A stretch of 35,363 nt of DNA from an uncultured Spirochaetia bacterium (GTDB taxonomy: Bacteria; Spirochaetota; Brachyspiria; Brachyspirales; Brachyspiraceae). Location: NCBI GenBank assembly GCA_947038115.1, contig CAMQVF010000010.1, positions 1 to 35,363 of the forward strand. The letters run 5' to 3'. Of this stretch, positions 1,727 to 14,916 are shown in pieces. Made by a program: the position numbers and the translations under genes. The notes under the pieces are model-generated. The model made no database searches. It was not told the origin of the DNA and saw only the letters and a program-made list of their open reading frames with translations. Each line of letters begins with the position of its first letter. Within the stretch, counting starts at the first letter, position 1.

Positions 1727-3427
1727 ATGAATCAGTTTTTAAATAAGCTTACAGGTCAATTAAAAGATATATTTAGTAAAACTACTACTATGCAAAGAGC
1801 TATAATAATAGGTGTCTTTGTAATAGGTATTGCTGCTATTGTCTTTACTATTTCTATGACATCTAAAAAATCGGGTGATTTACTATTTCAATCGCCATTG
1901 AATCAAGAAGATGCTCGTAATGTTTTATCTGTGTTAGATGCCAACTCTATTAAATACGAATATAGAAATGGACTTATATCTTTAACACCAACTGATAAAG
2001 CAAAGGCAGAACTTGAACTTGTGAAAGAAGGTAAAATGCCTGCTGGTGTCGACGGATGGGAGATTTTCGATTCTCCACGTATAGGTATTACAGACGCTGA
2101 ACTTGATATTAATAAAAGACGAGCATTAACAAAGTCTATCACTCAGCTTCTAATGAAGTTAGATTTTATCGAAGATGTTACTGTCGATTTGGCATTCCCT
2201 AAAAAAGAATACTTAACTGACATCGACTCACCTGTTACTGCATCTGTTGTAATAGAACCTAAACCGTTTAAAGATGATGTATTAAAAGATGCTAAAACTG
2301 TAAGAGGACTTCAACAACTTATAGCTATGGGTGTAGACAAATTAAGAGCCGAATTTGTAACAATTAGTGATAGTAGCGGAAATGTACTTACCGACTTCAC
2401 TGATGAAAGTGCCGACTTAAAACTTAAAGTGGCTCAAGAAGAATTTAAAATTGTTGAACGTGAACGTAAAAAAATTGAAAATAAAATATCGTCTACTTTA
2501 GGAAGAATATATTCAAATAGAGTAGAAACTACTATAGCATTAGAAATTGGCTGGGATGAAATAAGTATTACAAACAACTTGGTTATACCTATTGTACTAA
2601 AAGAAGATGACCCAGCAACTCCTTATGATGATAGTATCGTAACAAATAAAGTGCCTATTTCAACTAGAACAGTATCTGAAGTGTGGAATGGCCAACAGTT
2701 TATACCACAAGGTGCTGCTGGTGCGGAAGAAAATATTCCTCCTGGATATAAAGATAAAACTGATAAATGGCAGAATTACACAAAAACTGAAGATCAAGAA
2801 AATTATGAATTAAGTAAAAGATATGAAGCTATAAAAAAAGGAAGTTATCAGATTGGTAAAATCTCTGCTGCTATAGCTATAGATGGAAGATGGGAGAGAC
2901 AATATAATGTAGATGGAGATCCAGTTATTACAAACAACAGTAGTTATGTAAGAACTTATCACCCTGTAAGCCCTGAAGAAATAAGAAGTGTAACATCACT
3001 TGTGCAGGCAGCTATAGGATATAGTGTTAGAAGAGGCGACCAAGTAACTGTAACCCATTTACAATTTGACCAATGGGATAAGTTTAGTGCCGAAGATTCT
3101 CTACTATTACAAAAACGAGTTATCAAAAGAACTTTAATTATAAGTATGATAGGAGTTTTGGTTTTATTCTTAGTAATACTATTATTTAGAGCTCTTCAAA
3201 AAGAACTGGTTAGAAGACGTAGAATTAGAGAAGAAGAAATTGAACGTAAACAAATGGAGATGCGTAGACAAGCTATGATGTCTTCTATTGAAGCACCTAT
3301 AACTGAAACAAATATTGATGAAGCTGCTCGTAAAAAGCTTGCTGAAGAAGTTGTAAAAATTAGTACTGAAAGACCTGATGATGTCGCTCAGCTTCTAAGA
3401 ACTTGGATGGCAGAAGATAAGCAATAG
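1727..3427 (+). CDS. fliF: Flagellar MS-ring protein FliF
   Basis: FliF forms the membrane-supramembrane ring on which the flagellar rotor and export gate are built. The 566-aa length fits the family. A first membrane helix is at about residues 25-44 (AIIIGVFVIGIAAIVF) and a second at about 469-489 (LIISMIGVLVLFLVILLF), with the large periplasmic ring-building region between them. The segment around LVKEGKMPAGVDGWEIFD and the following RALTKSITQL are typical of the YscJ/FliF domain. The short C-terminal cytoplasmic tail, ending in RPDDVAQLLRTWM, is the FliG-binding part. GGGAG nine bases before the ATG supports this start. It is the first gene of the flagellar operon and follows the promoter at 1601. 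Confidence 0.97.
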   Translation: MNQFLNKLTGQLKDIFSKTTTMQRAIIIGVFVIGIAAIVFTISMTSKKSGDLLFQSPLNQEDARNVLSVLDANSIKYEYRNGLISLTPTDKAKAELELVKEGKMPAGVDGWEIFDSPRIGITDAELDINKRRALTKSITQLLMKLDFIEDVTVDLAFPKKEYLTDIDSPVTASVVIEPKPFKDDVLKDAKTVRGLQQLIAMGVDKLRAEFVTISDSSGNVLTDFTDESADLKLKVAQEEFKIVERERKKIENKISSTLGRIYSNRVETTIALEIGWDEISITNNLVIPIVLKEDDPATPYDDSIVTNKVPISTRTVSEVWNGQQFIPQGAAGAEENIPPGYKDKTDKWQNYTKTEDQENYELSKRYEAIKKGSYQIGKISAAIAIDGRWERQYNVDGDPVITNNSSYVRTYHPVSPEEIRSVTSLVQAAIGYSVRRGDQVTVTHLQFDQWDKFSAEDSLLLQKRVIKRTLIISMIGVLVLFLVILLFRALQKELVRRRRIREEEIERKQMEMRRQAMMSSIEAPITETNIDEAARKKLAEEVVKISTERPDDVAQLLRTWMAEDKQ

Positions 3428-3470
3428 ATGTTTATAGAGTAACAAAGTTAAATAGAGAGGAATAAAAGGT

Positions 3471-4493
3471 ATGGCAACAAATGATAAAAAAGCAAGAGTA
3501 TTAAGTGGTAGACAAAAAGCTGCTATATTTCTTGTATCATTAGGAACTGAGACATCAAGTGATATATTTAAATATCTAAAAGAAGATGAGATTGAACAAA
3601 TTACATTTGATATTGCTAGACTAGAAAATATTGAGTCTACTGATAAAGAAGTAGTTTTCCGTGAATTCCAAGATATGATGCAAGCTCAAGACTTTATCAC
3701 TCAAGGTGGTATCGACTATGCTAGAGATTTATTAGAAAGATCATTAGGGTCAAGCAAAGCTGGTGATATCATTAACAGGCTTACATCTTCACTTCAAGTA
3801 AGACCTTTTGACTTCATTCGCCGTACCGACCCCGCTCATCTTTTGAACTTTATACAAGGGGAGCATCCTCAAACTATATCGCTTATTTTGGTATATTTAG
3901 AACCATCAAAGGCTGCGAGTATTTTAGGAAGTTTACCTGCCGATATGCAAGCTGATGTGGCTAAGCGTATTGCTACAATGGATAGAACTTCACCTGAAGT
4001 TTTGCGTGAGGTTGAACGTGTACTTGAACGTAAATTGTCATCACTTGCAAGCGAAGACTTCACTAGTGCTGGTGGTATCGAGTCGATTGTTGATATTATC
4101 AATAGTGTTGACCGATCTACCGAAAAAGCTATTATTGAGAGCCTAGAAGAAGAAGATCCAGAATTGGCAGAAGAAATTAAAAAGCGTATGTTTGTATTCG
4201 AAGATATTGTTTTACTTGACGATAGAGCTATTCAAAAAGTTTTACGTGAAGTTGACTCAGCCGATTTATCAAAAGCGCTTAAAAGTGTTGATACTGATGC
4301 TCAAGAAAAAGTCTATAGAAACATGTCGAAACGTGCTTCTCAATTACTAAAAGAAGATATGGAAGTAATGGGACCTGTACGTCTTAAAGATGTTGAAGAG
4401 GCTCAGCAAAAAATTGTTAATATCATACGTAAACTCGAAGAGCAGGGAGATATTGTCGTTGCTCGTGCGGGTGAAGATGAGATGGTAGTTTAA
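3471..4493 (+). CDS. fliG: Flagellar motor switch protein FliG
   Basis: FliG couples ion flow through the stators to rotation and forms the upper part of the C-ring. The 340-aa protein has the three-part layout of the family: an N-terminal FliF-binding domain starting near SGRQKAAIFLVSLG, a middle domain with the conserved GEHPQTISLIL motif at about residue 130, and a C-terminal torque domain with the charged helix around FEDIVLLDDRAIQKVLREVD. GAGAGG ten bases before the ATG supports the start. It lies 43 bases after fliF and 17 before fliH. Spirochaetes often carry more than one fliG. This copy sits in the main operon and has a full C-terminal domain, which suggests that it is the motor paralogue. 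Confidence 0.97.
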   Translation: MATNDKKARVLSGRQKAAIFLVSLGTETSSDIFKYLKEDEIEQITFDIARLENIESTDKEVVFREFQDMMQAQDFITQGGIDYARDLLERSLGSSKAGDIINRLTSSLQVRPFDFIRRTDPAHLLNFIQGEHPQTISLILVYLEPSKAASILGSLPADMQADVAKRIATMDRTSPEVLREVERVLERKLSSLASEDFTSAGGIESIVDIINSVDRSTEKAIIESLEEEDPELAEEIKKRMFVFEDIVLLDDRAIQKVLREVDSADLSKALKSVDTDAQEKVYRNMSKRASQLLKEDMEVMGPVRLKDVEEAQQKIVNIIRKLEEQGDIVVARAGEDEMVV

Positions 4494-8202: not shown

Positions 8203-9225
8203 CTATCTTTGCACTCGACCAGAGCCGTCACCTTTCATGAGTGTCATAATTTCATCGACATTTACTCTATTAAAATCGCCTTCAATTGAGTGCTTCAAAC
8301 AACTAGCAGCTGTTGCGAACTCTAAACAGTCTTGAACCTGCATATTATTCATCATTGAATATATAAGCCCTGCAGCAAAACTATCACCGCCACCAACTCT
8401 CTCAATTATTCTTATAAAATATTCTTTTGAGAAGTAATAATTATTATCATGATAAAGCATAGCCGACCATTTATTATCACTAGCAGAAATTGAACTTCTT
8501 AAAGTAATAGCAACCGCCTTAAAATTAAATCGCTTTGTAAGCTCATTTGCCACTTCTTTATAGCCTTCCAAAGAAAGTTCCCCATTTATTATATTTGTAT
8601 TTGAAGCCTTAATTCCAAAAACTGTTTCAGCATCTTCCTCATTAGCAAAACAAATATCAACATAAGGCATAATACTAGACATTATCTCATTAGCCTCTTC
8701 ACTAGTCCATAATTTTTTTCTAAAGTTAATATCACAACTTATAGTAATATTTCTTTCTTTAGCCTTTTTACAAGCCTCTAAACATATTTGAGGTAAATTT
8801 CCTTTGAGTGCAGGAGTGATGCCTGTCAAGTGAAACCATTTAGTATCTTCAAAAATTTTATCCCAATCGAAGTCGCCAATATTCGCTTGCGAGATAGATG
8901 AATACGCTCTGTCATATATAACTTTAGAAGCTCTCTGGCTTGCTCCTTTTTCAAGATAATAAATACCAACCCTGTCGCCACCAGTTACAATTTTTGAGGT
9001 ATCAACTCCATAACGTCTTAAGTCATTAATTGCCGCATTAGCAATATCATTTTTAGGAAGCTTTGTTATATAAGAAACATCAACACCAAGATGTGCAAGA
9101 GCAACAGCCACATTAGCTTCTGCCCCACCAAATGTATATTGAAGTTTATCTGTTTGTGTAAACCTTAAAAAACCATAAGGCGATAACCGAAGCATTATTT
9201 CACCAAATGTAACTACTTTAGACAT
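8203..9225 (-). CDS. kdgK: PfkB-family 2-keto-3-deoxygluconate kinase
   Basis: This PfkB-family kinase most likely phosphorylates 2-keto-3-deoxygluconate to KDPG, the substrate of the aldolase encoded just upstream. The N-terminal GEIMLRLSP and FGGAEANVAVALAHLG motifs are typical of KdgK-like enzymes. The C-terminal signature GGGDSFAAG is at residues 278-286, with Asp281 as the catalytic base. It reads GGGD where many family members have GAGD. Length, 340 aa, is normal. AAAGGATAG before the ATG supports the start. The 11-base gap after eda shows a two-gene operon, which is the main reason to prefer KDG over another sugar. Confidence 0.88.
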   Translation of the reverse strand: MSKVVTFGEIMLRLSPYGFLRFTQTDKLQYTFGGAEANVAVALAHLGVDVSYITKLPKNDIANAAINDLRRYGVDTSKIVTGGDRVGIYYLEKGASQRASKVIYDRAYSSISQANIGDFDWDKIFEDTKWFHLTGITPALKGNLPQICLEACKKAKERNITISCDINFRKKLWTSEEANEIMSSIMPYVDICFANEEDAETVFGIKASNTNIINGELSLEGYKEVANELTKRFNFKAVAITLRSSISASDNKWSAMLYHDNNYYFSKEYFIRIIERVGGGDSFAAGLIYSMMNNMQVQDCLEFATAASCLKHSIEGDFNRVNVDEIMTLMKGDGSGRVQR

Positions 9226-9236
9226 AATACTATCCT

Positions 9237-10184
9237 TTACTTTTTTATTAAATTTATCTCGAAATCTGATATTTTATTTTTTAATGATACATAAACTATA
9301 TTATCATTTTTATCTTTTTTCATTGAAGTAAAATCGAATTCTACTTTTCTATTTTCTAAATGATATATCGCACGCTCAACAGATATTGTCGAGAAAGATA
9401 TAAATTTATTATTTTTTTCTTTAGTCTTTCTAACTTCAAAAACATTTTTAATAATTAAACTATCATCAATGCTTTCATAATTATTTGAAAATATATCAGA
9501 AAAACTTTTAATGGAATTATCATTATCTTCATAAGACCCAACATGAGAAATATTCAAATCTAAAATTTTATTCACAGTTTTTTCTGCTAATTCTTTAATC
9601 TTGTCAAAATCTTGCGACTTTATTAAATCTTCTTTGGCGATAAAAGTGCCTCCACAAGCAATAACTTTATCACTCGACAAATACTCATTCATATTATCTA
9701 AACTAACTCCACCAGTGGGCATAAATAAAATATTGCTATAAGGAGCTGATAAATCTTTAATCATGCCAATACCACCACTACTCGCCGCTGGGAAAAATTT
9801 CAAGATATTAATACCCATTTCAAGGGCTTTTTCAATTTCACTTGGAGTAATACAACCGGGGACTATTGGTACATTTTTTTTGATACAATAACTAACAACT
9901 TTTTCATTAAACCCAGGGCTCACCATAAATTTAGCACCAGCATCCAATGCCTTATCAACTTGAGCAGTATTTAAAACTGTTCCTGCCCCTATTATAATAT
10001 CCTTGTTTTTATACGAAATATTTTTCATAGCATCATAAGCTTTATCAGTTCTAAATGTAATTTCGATTATCGGAATTCCACCTTCACATAATGCATGCGA
10101 TAAACCTAGTGCATAATCAGGGTTCTCGATTTTAACTACTGGTACAATACCTATTTTTTTTACAAGTTCAAAAATACTATTCAT
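9237..10184 (-). CDS. eda: KDPG/KHG aldolase with a C-terminal VOC-like domain
   Basis: Residues 1-210 are a class I KDPG aldolase, which splits 2-keto-3-deoxy-6-phosphogluconate into pyruvate and glyceraldehyde-3-phosphate. Glu41 in IEITFRT and the Schiff-base lysine Lys129 in NILKFFPAASSGG are both present, with the phosphate-binding GGV near 158. Residues of about 213-315 form an extra domain. Its segments SHVGSYED, KFISFSTISVERAIYHLENR and a final FEINLI resemble a vicinal-oxygen-chelate (glyoxalase-like) fold, as seen in other long bacterial aldolases of this type. The role of this domain is not known to me. The gene has its own promoter 67 bases after rfuD and heads the operon with kdgK. 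Confidence 0.9.
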   Translation of the reverse strand: MNSIFELVKKIGIVPVVKIENPDYALGLSHALCEGGIPIIEITFRTDKAYDAMKNISYKNKDIIIGAGTVLNTAQVDKALDAGAKFMVSPGFNEKVVSYCIKKNVPIVPGCITPSEIEKALEMGINILKFFPAASSGGIGMIKDLSAPYSNILFMPTGGVSLDNMNEYLSSDKVIACGGTFIAKEDLIKSQDFDKIKELAEKTVNKILDLNISHVGSYEDNDNSIKSFSDIFSNNYESIDDSLIIKNVFEVRKTKEKNNKFISFSTISVERAIYHLENRKVEFDFTSMKKDKNDNIVYVSLKNKISDFEINLIKK

Positions 10185-10251: not shown

Positions 10252-11100
10252 CTAAAACTCTTTTCGAAACCTTGAATATATAGTAATCGATAAAAGCGAT
10301 ATAATAAATGGAATTGCTAATATAATATCTAACGGAATATCAAAAGCACCTTGCATATAAATCGACAAAGCCTCACTTAATGCAAAAATAAATGACGCTA
10401 GAAGTATTCCAAAAGGTTTTTTATAACCTAAATAAATTAAAACTAAAGCTATCCAACCCTTCCCAGCCGACATATTTGGTGTGTATGATGATACTGTCAT
10501 AAATAAATAGCTACCTGCAAGGCTTGCAAATGCACCCGATAATGCGAATGCTATAATTTTATATTTTTTAATATTAAGATTTGAAGCTAAAGCAGAACTT
10601 TTATCAATACCAATGGCTCTAAGTCTTAAACCAAAAGGTGTTTTATATATTAAAATATAGCTTACAATACATAGAGCAATTGATAAATATACTATTATAT
10701 TAAACATAAACTCGCCATTAAAACCATATTCGCTTATATTTAAATTGTCAACAAATATACCGCTTTTATGACCAAACATTTTCATAGATAAAATACTTGT
10801 AATTGCGACTGCAAACATATTTACACCCAAGCCTATTATAAAAATATTAGCCTTAAAATATAAATTAATTAATATCTCAATTATAGCAATTAATACCGTT
10901 ATAACCATCGCGATAAAAATACTTAAAAATATATTTCCAGTAATTACATATGTGCTGGCTGTAATAAATGCTGATATTAATATTAAACCTTCAAGTGAAA
11001 TATTTAAACTACCAACAAGGACAGTGAAAAGTCCACCCAATGAGGATAATAATATCGGCGTCATTAAACCGATTGATGTACTAAGTATTAATTTATACAT
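10252..11100 (-). CDS. rfuD: Riboflavin ABC transporter permease RfuD
   Basis: This is an integral membrane permease of the BMP/nucleoside/sugar ABC class, with about eight hydrophobic segments. The NLNIKKYKIIAFALSGAFASLAGSY stretch is the cytoplasmic loop that contacts the ATPase. As last gene of the FMN-riboswitch operon it should carry riboflavin together with RfuC. The start is taken as the ATG at 11100, which has GGAG nine bases upstream. The upstream in-frame TTG at 11115 overlaps that GGAG and is less likely. With this start the gene overlaps the end of rfuC by 8 bases, implying coupled translation. Confidence 0.88.
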   Translation of the reverse strand: MYKLILSTSIGLMTPILLSSLGGLFTVLVGSLNISLEGLILISAFITASTYVITGNIFLSIFIAMVITVLIAIIEILINLYFKANIFIIGLGVNMFAVAITSILSMKMFGHKSGIFVDNLNISEYGFNGEFMFNIIVYLSIALCIVSYILIYKTPFGLRLRAIGIDKSSALASNLNIKKYKIIAFALSGAFASLAGSYLFMTVSSYTPNMSAGKGWIALVLIYLGYKKPFGILLASFIFALSEALSIYMQGAFDIPLDIILAIPFIISLLSITIYSRFRKEF

Positions 11101-12160
11101 TCTTTCTATCTCCAAATCGATTAATAATATCTTTTATAGACTTCGGTAAAACCTTTATTGTTATTGTGATAAAAATTAATGACTGAATTAACATTCCAAA
11201 TTCAATTGTCGCATCCGAATTTATATTAGCAGAATTAGCACCTGACTCGATATAAGCAAAAAATATACTAGAAAATATTATCAAGAGCGGATTATTTTTA
11301 GCTATTAATGACACAGCAATGGCAGAGAATCCAAGCCCTGATGAAAACTCCTTTATTGTCATGTGATAAGTCCCAAGCACCGCAAAAGAGCCAGCAAGCG
11401 AATTGAAAGCACCTGATATAAAAGCTGAAAGCATTATATATCTCGATACTGGAAGCCCCGCATAAAGCGAGAACTCTTTGTTCTTTCCAGATATTATTGT
11501 TTCATATCCAAATCTTGTTTTGTTTAAATAAATATATAAAATAATAGACAACACAATTGCTATAATAAAAGAAATATTTAATTGTGATGGATTAAGAATT
11601 CTATATAAAAAGAAGTTTGAATCTATTTTATCAGTTGTAAGTAAATTACTATTTTCATCATTAAAAACAGAGGTGACTAAATAATTAACAAATAGAATAA
11701 CTATTCTAGAAATTAAATATGTGCTGATTAAATCATTCACATTCCACTTAACTTTCAACAAACCGCTGATATATGCTAAAATTCCACCGACAAAAATAGA
11801 ACATAAAATACTTAGAAATATCCCGACAAATCCATTTAAATTTGAAAACTCGAGTAAAAATATTGTAGTTATAAATCCACCCAAATATATCTGCCCTTCT
11901 CCACCTAGGTTAAAAAATCCAATATGAAATGATAAACATATTCCAAGCGATGCCACCATTAAAATGCTTGCCAAATTTAACATATTACCAAAAGAATAAA
12001 TATTTAGAAAAGGGCCTAATAAAAAATAATAAATAGTTGATAATGGATTATTACTAAACAAAAATGAAATACCTATAATCGAAACTATAGAAGCTAAAAA
12101 TATTATCAAAAAATATTTATAATTATTAAAAATTTGGTTTATTCTAACTTTCATATTCAT
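11093..12160 (-). CDS. rfuC: Riboflavin ABC transporter permease RfuC
   Basis: A second polytopic permease of the same class, slightly longer than RfuD, that would form the membrane channel as a heterodimer with it. The membrane segments start at about IFLASIVSIIGISFLF. FHIGFFNLGGEGQIYLGGF is the conserved early motif of this permease family, and KNKEFSLYAGLPVSRYIMLSAFISGAFNSLAGSF is the ATPase-contact loop followed by a helix. The frame is open further upstream to 12202, but that would overlap rfuB by 59 bases. ATG 12160 (MNMKVRINQ) or 12154 is preferred, giving an overlap of only 11-17 bases. Confidence 0.88.
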   Translation of the reverse strand: MNMKVRINQIFNNYKYFLIIFLASIVSIIGISFLFSNNPLSTIYYFLLGPFLNIYSFGNMLNLASILMVASLGICLSFHIGFFNLGGEGQIYLGGFITTIFLLEFSNLNGFVGIFLSILCSIFVGGILAYISGLLKVKWNVNDLISTYLISRIVILFVNYLVTSVFNDENSNLLTTDKIDSNFFLYRILNPSQLNISFIIAIVLSIILYIYLNKTRFGYETIISGKNKEFSLYAGLPVSRYIMLSAFISGAFNSLAGSFAVLGTYHMTIKEFSSGLGFSAIAVSLIAKNNPLLIIFSSIFFAYIESGANSANINSDATIEFGMLIQSLIFITITIKVLPKSIKDIINRFGDRKNV

Positions 12161-13658
12161 CCATACCCGCCGTATAATTTGATAACTGCTTTTCTGATAC
12201 ATCCTTATTTATTAAATTTTTGAAAACTCTGCCTCTATAAAGCACCATAATTTTATCTGCCAATATAAGAACTTCGTTGATATTAGAAGAAATTAAAATA
12301 ATACCTATTCCTTTTTTCTTAAGCTCAAAAATATTCTCATAAATTAAATTGCATGTTTTTATATCAACACCTTGAGTGGGTTCTGAAAAAATAATGTAAT
12401 CGGATATTCGCTCTATTTCTCTAGCAACTATAAGTCTTTGAATATTACCACCTGACAATGTATCAACATTTTGACTATAGTTTGCTTTTATATTCATCGT
12501 ATCCAATATATTTTTGGAATGCATTCTAGTAACCTTTCTTACAAAAAAAATAAATTTAGTAAGCAATCTTCTTTTTAAGATTATAGCATTATCTAAAATA
12601 CTACTATGAAGCGATACCCCTCTATGCATTCTATTGGCAGGGACATAAGATAAATTATTTTTTCTTAAATGTATAGTCGAATATTTTGTGATGTCTTCAC
12701 CATGATAATAAATAATACCAGATGTTGGCAGAGTAAAACCAGCGAGAATATCTTCAAGCTCCCTAAGCCCATTTCCTTCACTCGCAGTAATTGCTAATAT
12801 ATCACCCGAGTTAAGAGCAAATGAAATATTATCAAGGCTTGTCGTTCCATAAATATTTTTTATATTGCTTATATTAACAAGCTCTAATATTGTTTTTTTT
12901 TCTGCGATTACAGGTATTTCTTTTTTATATATACTCGAATCATCTATTTTACAATCATCATCACAAAGCAAAATATTTGAAATATATCTATAATCAACCG
13001 CCGAAGTTTGGTATATATTTTCAATAATTCCATTACGCATAATTCCTATTCGATTCGCTATACGCATAACTTCTTTAATTTTATGTGTGATAATTATAAT
13101 CGTTATTCCATTTTTTTGAAATGTTGAAATTGTATCATATATTATGCTAGCATCTTGAAATGACATCGACGCTGTTGGCTCATCGAGTATTATTAGTTTT
13201 GCATTTTTATAAAGTGCTTTAAGTATTCCTACTTCTTTAATTTGTTTTGTATTTAAATATTTAATTTTTGTTTTTACATCTAAATCGAAGCCATAGTTTT
13301 TAATCAAACTTATTATTTTTATTTTGGCTTTTTTGATATCTAAAAATATTTTAAACTTTCTAGGTTCATTGCCTAAAATAATATTGTCTAAGACAGTCAT
13401 ATTAAAAAATAGCTTATCATGTTGATGCACCATTCCTATCGAATTTTGTTCATAGTTATAGATCATCTCACCAGAATCAAAATTTTCGAAACCAGCAATA
13501 ATTTTTACAAGTGTGGTTTTACCCGCACCATTGTCGCCAATTAAAGCAAAAACCTCCCCCTTGTTGATATCTAAGTCGACATATTTACAAGCTTCTATAT
13601 TAGTTGAAGCATACTTTTTATATATTTTTCTTAAAGATAAAAGTGTATTAAATTCCAA
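12144..13658 (-). CDS. rfuB: Riboflavin ABC transporter ATPase RfuB (two-domain)
   Basis: RfuB contains two fused ATPase domains that power the transporter. Domain 1 has a normal Walker A, GDNGAGKTT at 41-49, and Walker B LIILDEPTAS, but its signature reads LNTKQ instead of LSxGQ. Domain 2 has a normal signature, LSGGN, and a Walker B ending FSEPTQGVD, but its Walker A region reads ASEGNGLRE and lacks the GKT. The two defects fall in the same composite site, leaving one competent ATP site. This pattern is typical of sugar/BMP-type ATPases. The start is TTG with AAGGT about six bases upstream. The gene begins 15 bases after rfuA. Confidence 0.92.
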   Translation of the reverse strand: MEFNTLLSLRKIYKKYASTNIEACKYVDLDINKGEVFALIGDNGAGKTTLVKIIAGFENFDSGEMIYNYEQNSIGMVHQHDKLFFNMTVLDNIILGNEPRKFKIFLDIKKAKIKIISLIKNYGFDLDVKTKIKYLNTKQIKEVGILKALYKNAKLIILDEPTASMSFQDASIIYDTISTFQKNGITIIIITHKIKEVMRIANRIGIMRNGIIENIYQTSAVDYRYISNILLCDDDCKIDDSSIYKKEIPVIAEKKTILELVNISNIKNIYGTTSLDNISFALNSGDILAITASEGNGLRELEDILAGFTLPTSGIIYYHGEDITKYSTIHLRKNNLSYVPANRMHRGVSLHSSILDNAIILKRRLLTKFIFFVRKVTRMHSKNILDTMNIKANYSQNVDTLSGGNIQRLIVAREIERISDYIIFSEPTQGVDIKTCNLIYENIFELKKKGIGIILISSNINEVLILADKIMVLYRGRVFKNLINKDVSEKQLSNYTAGMDEYES

Positions 13659-13673
13659 TTAATTACCTTAAAA

Positions 13674-14684
13674 TTATAAACTTTCATACTCGAAAATAAT
13701 TTTACCGTCTTTTATATCATTAACTAAATTAGAAATTTTATCTCTTATATCTAATGGAACATAATTAATATGATACTCACTATCATTAAGAATGCTAATA
13801 TAGCCTTCTTTTATTCCTAAAACTTTATTTTTTCCATATTCAATTTTATTTTTTGATGCGTTAATTATAACTTCTCTTGTGAGTTGATATTGTTCAATTT
13901 GACCTGAAAGTAAAATAACTCCTTCTGCCTTTGAATAAGCATCAGTGTCATGATACACCATATATTTTTTTTCTTCTTTCACTCCATTAATAACACCCAC
14001 ACTAGCACCACCAGTAATGGTCGCAATAACATTAACTCCACTAGCTATCATACTTTTTGTAATTTCAAGTGCTTTACTAGAATCATACCAATTACCGACA
14101 ACTCTAAAGTCAAGCTCAAAATTATCATCCACTTTTTTTGCACCATCTAAAAAACCGGGTAGAATATGTTTGTTAAGCAATGGAAACTCTTGAGAAGCTA
14201 TGAAGCCTATTTTATTACTATCTACTATATTATCTAAATTACTTCTTGATATTAGCCCAGCCATATAGCCTAAAACATATGACTGCTCATATTGATTAAA
14301 CATATATGTCGCTATATTAGTATTATCAATATAATAGGAATCTGTTATTATAAACTTTTGATTATTTAGTGACTGTGAAACTTCATTACATATCTCAGAT
14401 AATGCAGGATTAGTTGTAAGAATAATATCATAATTACCTTGCAAAGCAAATGACATTAATTTTTCTTTCCAAGCCGATTGATTATACCCAGCTTCTATAA
14501 CTTTAACTTTAATATTCTCATTTGAAATGCTTAAAGCTCCACTAGCCATTGACTCATACATCGGGCTACCTTCAGTTACTCCAGGAATAAACACACCGAC
14601 TGAAAACATATTTTCATCTTTTTTATTATTAGCACAAGAAAAAATAAAAAAAGATAATATTAAAAAACATAATAATTGTTTCAT
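13674..14684 (-). CDS. rfuA: Riboflavin-binding lipoprotein RfuA (BMP family)
   Basis: RfuA is the substrate-binding component, anchored outside the inner membrane by a lipid. The signal peptide ends in a spirochaete-style lipobox with Cys17 in IFSCANN. The mature protein follows the BMP/PnrA periplasmic-binding pattern: VGVFIPGVTEGSPMYE at the start, YDIILTTNPALSEI, and IGFIASQEFPLLNKHILPGF. BMP proteins usually bind nucleosides, but the FMN riboswitch directly upstream and the described RfuA of spirochaetes (TpN38 in Treponema) argue for riboflavin. The ATG at 14684 is preceded by a GGAG that can be sequestered in a hairpin, see 14695-14720. It is the first gene of the operon. Confidence 0.92.
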   Translation of the reverse strand: MKQLLCFLILSFFIFSCANNKKDENMFSVGVFIPGVTEGSPMYESMASGALSISNENIKVKVIEAGYNQSAWKEKLMSFALQGNYDIILTTNPALSEICNEVSQSLNNQKFIITDSYYIDNTNIATYMFNQYEQSYVLGYMAGLISRSNLDNIVDSNKIGFIASQEFPLLNKHILPGFLDGAKKVDDNFELDFRVVGNWYDSSKALEITKSMIASGVNVIATITGGASVGVINGVKEEKKYMVYHDTDAYSKAEGVILLSGQIEQYQLTREVIINASKNKIEYGKNKVLGIKEGYISILNDSEYHINYVPLDIRDKISNLVNDIKDGKIIFEYESL

Positions 14685-14694
14685 AATAATTTAA

Positions 14695-14720
14695 ACTCCA
14701 TAAAAAATATTAATCGGAGT
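14695..14720 (-). promoter_or_regulatory. Hairpin sequestering the rfuA ribosome binding site
   Basis: In the RNA of the minus strand, ACTCC (14720-14716) can pair with GGAGT (14699-14695), closing a 16-base AU-rich loop. GGAG is the only good ribosome binding site for the rfuA ATG at 14684, about 11 bases away. No U-tract follows, so this looks like a translation-blocking platform and not a terminator. How aptamer folding frees or forms this stem cannot be resolved by eye. Confidence 0.55.
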
Positions 14721-14762
14721 ATTATGATGAAAGTATTTGTTTTTATAAATTTATAAAAGAAA

Positions 14763-14881
14763 ATCTTCTATCATCCAGACTATAACTGTCGGTTGCCGAA
14801 TTTCACGACATCAAAGCTATTATAAAAAAAGCTTTCGTGGACTATAACCACCGGTGAGGAATTACGCCTCGCCCCGAAGAT
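14763..14881 (-). promoter_or_regulatory. FMN riboswitch (RFN element)
   Basis: Read on the minus strand, the element opens with ATCTTCGGGGC and closes with GATGATAGAAGAT, so the P1 ends ATCTTC and GAAGAT pair. Between them are the conserved RFN blocks: AATTCCTCACCGG, TAGTCCACGAAAGC, a variable AT-rich stem of about 25 bases, GTGAAATTCGGCAACCGACAG and TATAGTCTGGATG. These match the FMN aptamer family, which binds flavin mononucleotide and turns off riboflavin synthesis or import genes. It lies 78 bases before rfuA and begins right at the predicted transcription start. Confidence 0.96.
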
Positions 14882-14887
14882 GTAAAT

Positions 14888-14916
14888 AATATATATCGTA
14901 TAAACCAAATTGTCAA
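14888..14916 (-). promoter_or_regulatory. Promoter of the rfuABCD operon
   Basis: On the minus strand TTGACA (14916-14911), a 17-base spacer and TATATT (14893-14888) place the transcription start near 14881, the first base of the riboswitch P1 stem. The agreement between predicted start and aptamer boundary supports both calls. Confidence 0.75.

Follow-up and report, generated by a model that had tools for sequence, protein, structure and literature searches.

A predicted translational FMN riboswitch upstream of the riboflavin importer operon rfuABCD in an uncultured member of the Brachyspiraceae

Introduction

In Spirochaeta smaragdinae, an FMN riboswitch lies upstream of an rfuABCD-like operon, Spirs_0556-0553 (PMC4418817), and riboflavin binding by RfuA of Treponema pallidum is cited in the same work. 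In Escherichia coli, the FMN riboswitch of ribB acts on translation start with the assistance of Rho (PMC5234074). We analyzed a stretch of 35,363 nucleotides (the window) from an uncultured Spirochaetia bacterium of the family Brachyspiraceae (contig CAMQVF010000010.1 of assembly GCA_947038115.1). As in S. smaragdinae, an RF00050 aptamer here precedes a four-gene BMP-type riboflavin ABC importer. The predicted switch resembles that of E. coli ribB in that the FMN aptamer would act on translation start, but ribB is a biosynthetic gene whereas the window leader would control an importer. The leader is largely an ordinary case of a known switch type; the twist is an output that is apparently unlike that of its relatives.

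Results

The minus strand carries a complete FMN aptamer (RFN element) at 14885-14759 (cmscan against RF00050, 109.8 bits, E-value 6.4e–25; curated cut-off 66.2 bits). The match covers the full length of the model (positions 1-138), is the sole FMN aptamer of the genome (1.77 Mb, 99% complete) and sits 74 nt upstream of the rfuA ATG on the same strand. From a sigma-70-type promoter, TTGACA-17-TATATT (14888-14916, minus strand, 11/12 consensus matches), the transcription start is predicted at about 14883-14881, coinciding with the beginning of the P1 5' strand (AUCUUC). The full aptamer at the predicted transcription start that had been proposed by the initial annotation is thus confirmed. Directly 3' of the aptamer, a perfect 18-nt palindrome, UUUUAUAAAUUUAUAAAA, occupies 14741-14758 (minus strand), within the loop of the candidate anti-sequestor described below.

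The first gene behind the leader, rfuA (13674-14684, minus strand), encodes a predicted riboflavin-binding lipoprotein (PF02608 Bmp, 187 bits) with a lipoprotein-like N-terminus, MKQLLCFLILSFFIFSCA. Its best PDB match is TpN38(b) of the T. pallidum RfuABCD system (4iil), to which it is homologous over residues 22-330 (203 bits; the next match scores 63.5). The nucleoside-binding TmpC/PnrA (2fqw) reaches only 54 bits, far below 4iil, and a nucleoside was dropped as the transporter substrate. This agrees with the earlier proposal that a BMP-type transporter at this locus should carry riboflavin and not a nucleoside. Judged by sequence, RfuA is a probable ortholog of the T. pallidum riboflavin-binding protein. 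The rest of the operon, on the same strand, has the expected importer parts: an ABC ATPase, rfuB (12144-13658), with two ATP-binding stretches (PF00005 twice), and two PF02653 permeases, rfuC (11093-12202) and rfuD (10252-11115). The rfuC start codon is probably internal to the open reading frame at 11093-12202. Downstream of rfuD, and on its strand, lie KDPG/KHG aldolase and PfkB kinase genes (8203-10184); the 67-nt gap in between overlaps a promoter-like site at 10240-10213.

Genome searches found neither RibH nor DHBP synthase in the window's genome (G000), in a second genome of its genus (G001) or in a sister genus (G028), and FAD synthetase is present in all three. Because RibH and DHBP synthase are missing and FAD synthetase is kept, the window organism probably cannot make riboflavin and must depend on its import. 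Another genus of the family (g2, probably Brachyspira) differs in this respect: RibH is found in 25 of its 26 genomes and DHBP synthase in 3/3 of those checked, and a close RfuA is absent from the g2 genomes with a ribD riboswitch.

We compared FMN leaders across 393 genomes of the spirochaete phylum; a class-wide search gave only the window's own order, and the phylum-wide comparison was chosen. RfuA (E-value ≤ 1e–50) was found in 111 genomes and an FMN aptamer in 102. By coordinates, the aptamer stands just upstream of rfuA in ten genomes, namely the window's, G028 and eight from other families. Since internal mismatches caused a strict terminator script to overlook many ribD terminators, a mismatch-tolerant script was used instead. 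In 8/8 of the other-family rfuA leaders, the start codon is preceded by a terminator-like hairpin that ends in a U-rich tail; in one of these leaders (G365) the tail is short, CTTTTCG, and the leader fails the strict scan. The same holds for 25/25 ribD leaders of g2. These ribD riboswitches share the aptamer family and the taxonomic family with the window leader, but they control biosynthesis. Against these 33 of 33 leaders, the mismatch-tolerant scan found no terminator-like hairpin in only two, those of the window and G028.

Between the aptamer and the rfuA ATG of the window, no intrinsic terminator was detected by the built-in scan or the mismatch-tolerant script, nor by the strict script. 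The hairpin at the Shine-Dalgarno (SD) sequence encloses a large loop, and what comes after the hairpin is UUUAAAUUAUU rather than a U run; the lack of a terminator tail noted in the initial annotation holds by two scans. FMN-controlled intrinsic termination of transcription, although it is the pattern of all the other leaders examined, is therefore very improbable here.

The G028 leader also has no terminator, and its SD is partly paired. We considered it as a second example of the window's switch and dropped it, as folding shows no P1-dependent change at its start site. At this locus (L087), rfuA, rfuB and rfuC lie together without rfuD, and the best rfuD match is on another contig (G028:C59:8078-8944, 60% identity). 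In the window's own genus, G001 encodes an RfuA of 60% identity and has no FMN aptamer; its rfuABCD genes (L086) stand behind a short leader without aptamer or anti-SD, upstream of rfuA at 3181-4212. The riboswitch was probably lost within the genus. Elsewhere in the phylum, a weak and a strong FMN aptamer match share a strand of contig G262:C29 (81884-82001 and 82871-83011). The weak match, at 37 bits, is sub-threshold and stands about 0.9 kb ahead of the strong one; it is possibly a decayed copy.

Control of rfuA had initially been attributed to a small hairpin that pairs ACTCC with the SD. Such a hairpin is predicted at 14695-14720 (minus strand), where ACUCCG (14720-14715) pairs with UGGAGU (14700-14695) at –5.1 kcal/mol alone and takes in the SD of rfuA, GGAG (14696-14699), 11 nt before the ATG at 14684. 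However, this inner hairpin of 5-6 bp competes with no part of the aptamer and is present in both modelled states: in the folding model the SD has an unpaired probability of 0.00-0.03 whether P1 is closed or not. Forming with or without a closed aptamer, it cannot switch alone; the probable switch is a larger structure of which it makes up just the tip.

From the inner hairpin, the stem extends outward by pairing of UUUCAU-C-AUAAU with AUUAU-U-AUGAAA. The extended pairing spans 14732 to 14679, the start codon included, and at one end leaves the originally annotated interval, 14695-14881. The resulting candidate sequestor hairpin (14679-14732, minus strand; arms 14732-14715 and 14700-14679) would cover both the SD and the start codon, and folding gives –11.1 kcal/mol for the long stem at 14733-14678. 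In the model, this longer stem is a better candidate for the OFF state than the inner hairpin. Opening the rfuA start region costs 12.8 kcal/mol; when the spacer was dinucleotide-shuffled 1000 times, the mean cost was 7.2 (sd 1.9), and only 13 shuffles (1.3%) reached that of the window. Hence the predicted masking of the SD and start codon by the anti-SD sequence exceeds chance. In a common frame, just one of the 31 open reading frames of the window has a start that costs more to open (10.8) than that of rfuA (10.3). In the comparison with G001, the start of its aptamer-less rfuA is open (3.5 versus 13.0 for the window rfuA). Terminator-type rfuA starts of other spirochaetes are also costly to open (6-12).

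The outer stem may be able to switch, since the 3' strand of P1 is a possible alternative partner for CUUUCAUC. In the minimum-energy fold, 13 pairs join 14774-14761 (the 3' strand of P1 with the bases just 5' of it) to 14738-14724, giving a candidate anti-sequestor at 14724-14774 (minus strand). Without ligand, its predicted probability is 0.76-0.91 before the start-codon region is transcribed and 0.23-0.51 later, a timing that suggests a kinetic, co-transcriptional decision. For a transcript that stops at the AUG, enforcing P1 lowers the unpaired probability of the start codon from 0.75 to 0.19; for longer transcripts at 37 °C, the drop is from 0.09-0.26 to 0.02-0.03. At 37 °C and with the start region already transcribed, the equilibrium model puts formation of the long stem at 29-65% even without P1. 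As the SD, too, is hidden whether P1 is closed or not, only a shallow switch is predicted. Moreover, an anti-sequestor duplex of this strength is what chance would give (53% of shuffles reach it), which makes the switch itself a prediction.

The ordinary strength of the anti-sequestor, the inner hairpin common to both modelled states and a same-genus relative that manages without an aptamer would fit a leader with no real switch, in which the aptamer is functional or vestigial and a constitutive SD hairpin merely lowers rfuA translation. Yet all parts of the aptamer are conserved, at the 109.8 bits given above, and the start-codon stem exceeds chance; we consider such a leader highly unlikely.

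Discussion

We put at roughly 0.7 the probability that this FMN riboswitch governs rfuABCD, the operon of the riboflavin importer, and does so most likely through a block of rfuA translation. Upon binding of FMN, P1 would close and retain its own 3' strand. UUUCAUCAUAAUACUCCG would thereby be freed to pair with UGGAGUUUAAAUUAUUAUGAAA, masking the SD and the start codon. In the absence of FMN, the P1 3' strand (GAUGAUAGAAGAU) could instead engage the AAUACUUUCAUC stretch, so that the SD would be covered by no more than the weak inner hairpin, a structure that ribosomes could open. Of the shut-off of RfuABCD translation by FMN that was originally proposed, the part concerning RfuA is probable, given the masking stem and the lack of a terminator; a lowered expression of rfuBCD is not directly predicted and would need translational coupling or polarity.

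FMN might also close the translation start and Rho then end the untranslated message, so that both message and protein fall. E. coli ribB, likewise a translational FMN riboswitch, uses Rho (PMC5234074), and the spacer before the SD of rfuA contains a C-containing, G-free stretch, ACAAAUACUUUCAUCAUAAUACUCC. The leader, however, is short and very A+U-rich, which makes a contribution of Rho rather unlikely, and loss of message through Rho would add to the masking of the start site and not replace it.

Within this one family, the FMN riboswitch may have changed both its target (from biosynthesis to import) and its output (from termination to masking) as riboflavin synthesis was lost, with one species then dropping the switch and keeping a short open leader; we offer this course of events only tentatively. 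The riboflavin role of the BMP-type transporter is backed by three independent lines, namely regulation, homology and missing biosynthesis. Overall, one phylum offers a small natural series in which the same aptamer acts either through termination or, apparently, through translation, so that the exchange of expression platforms can be tested directly.
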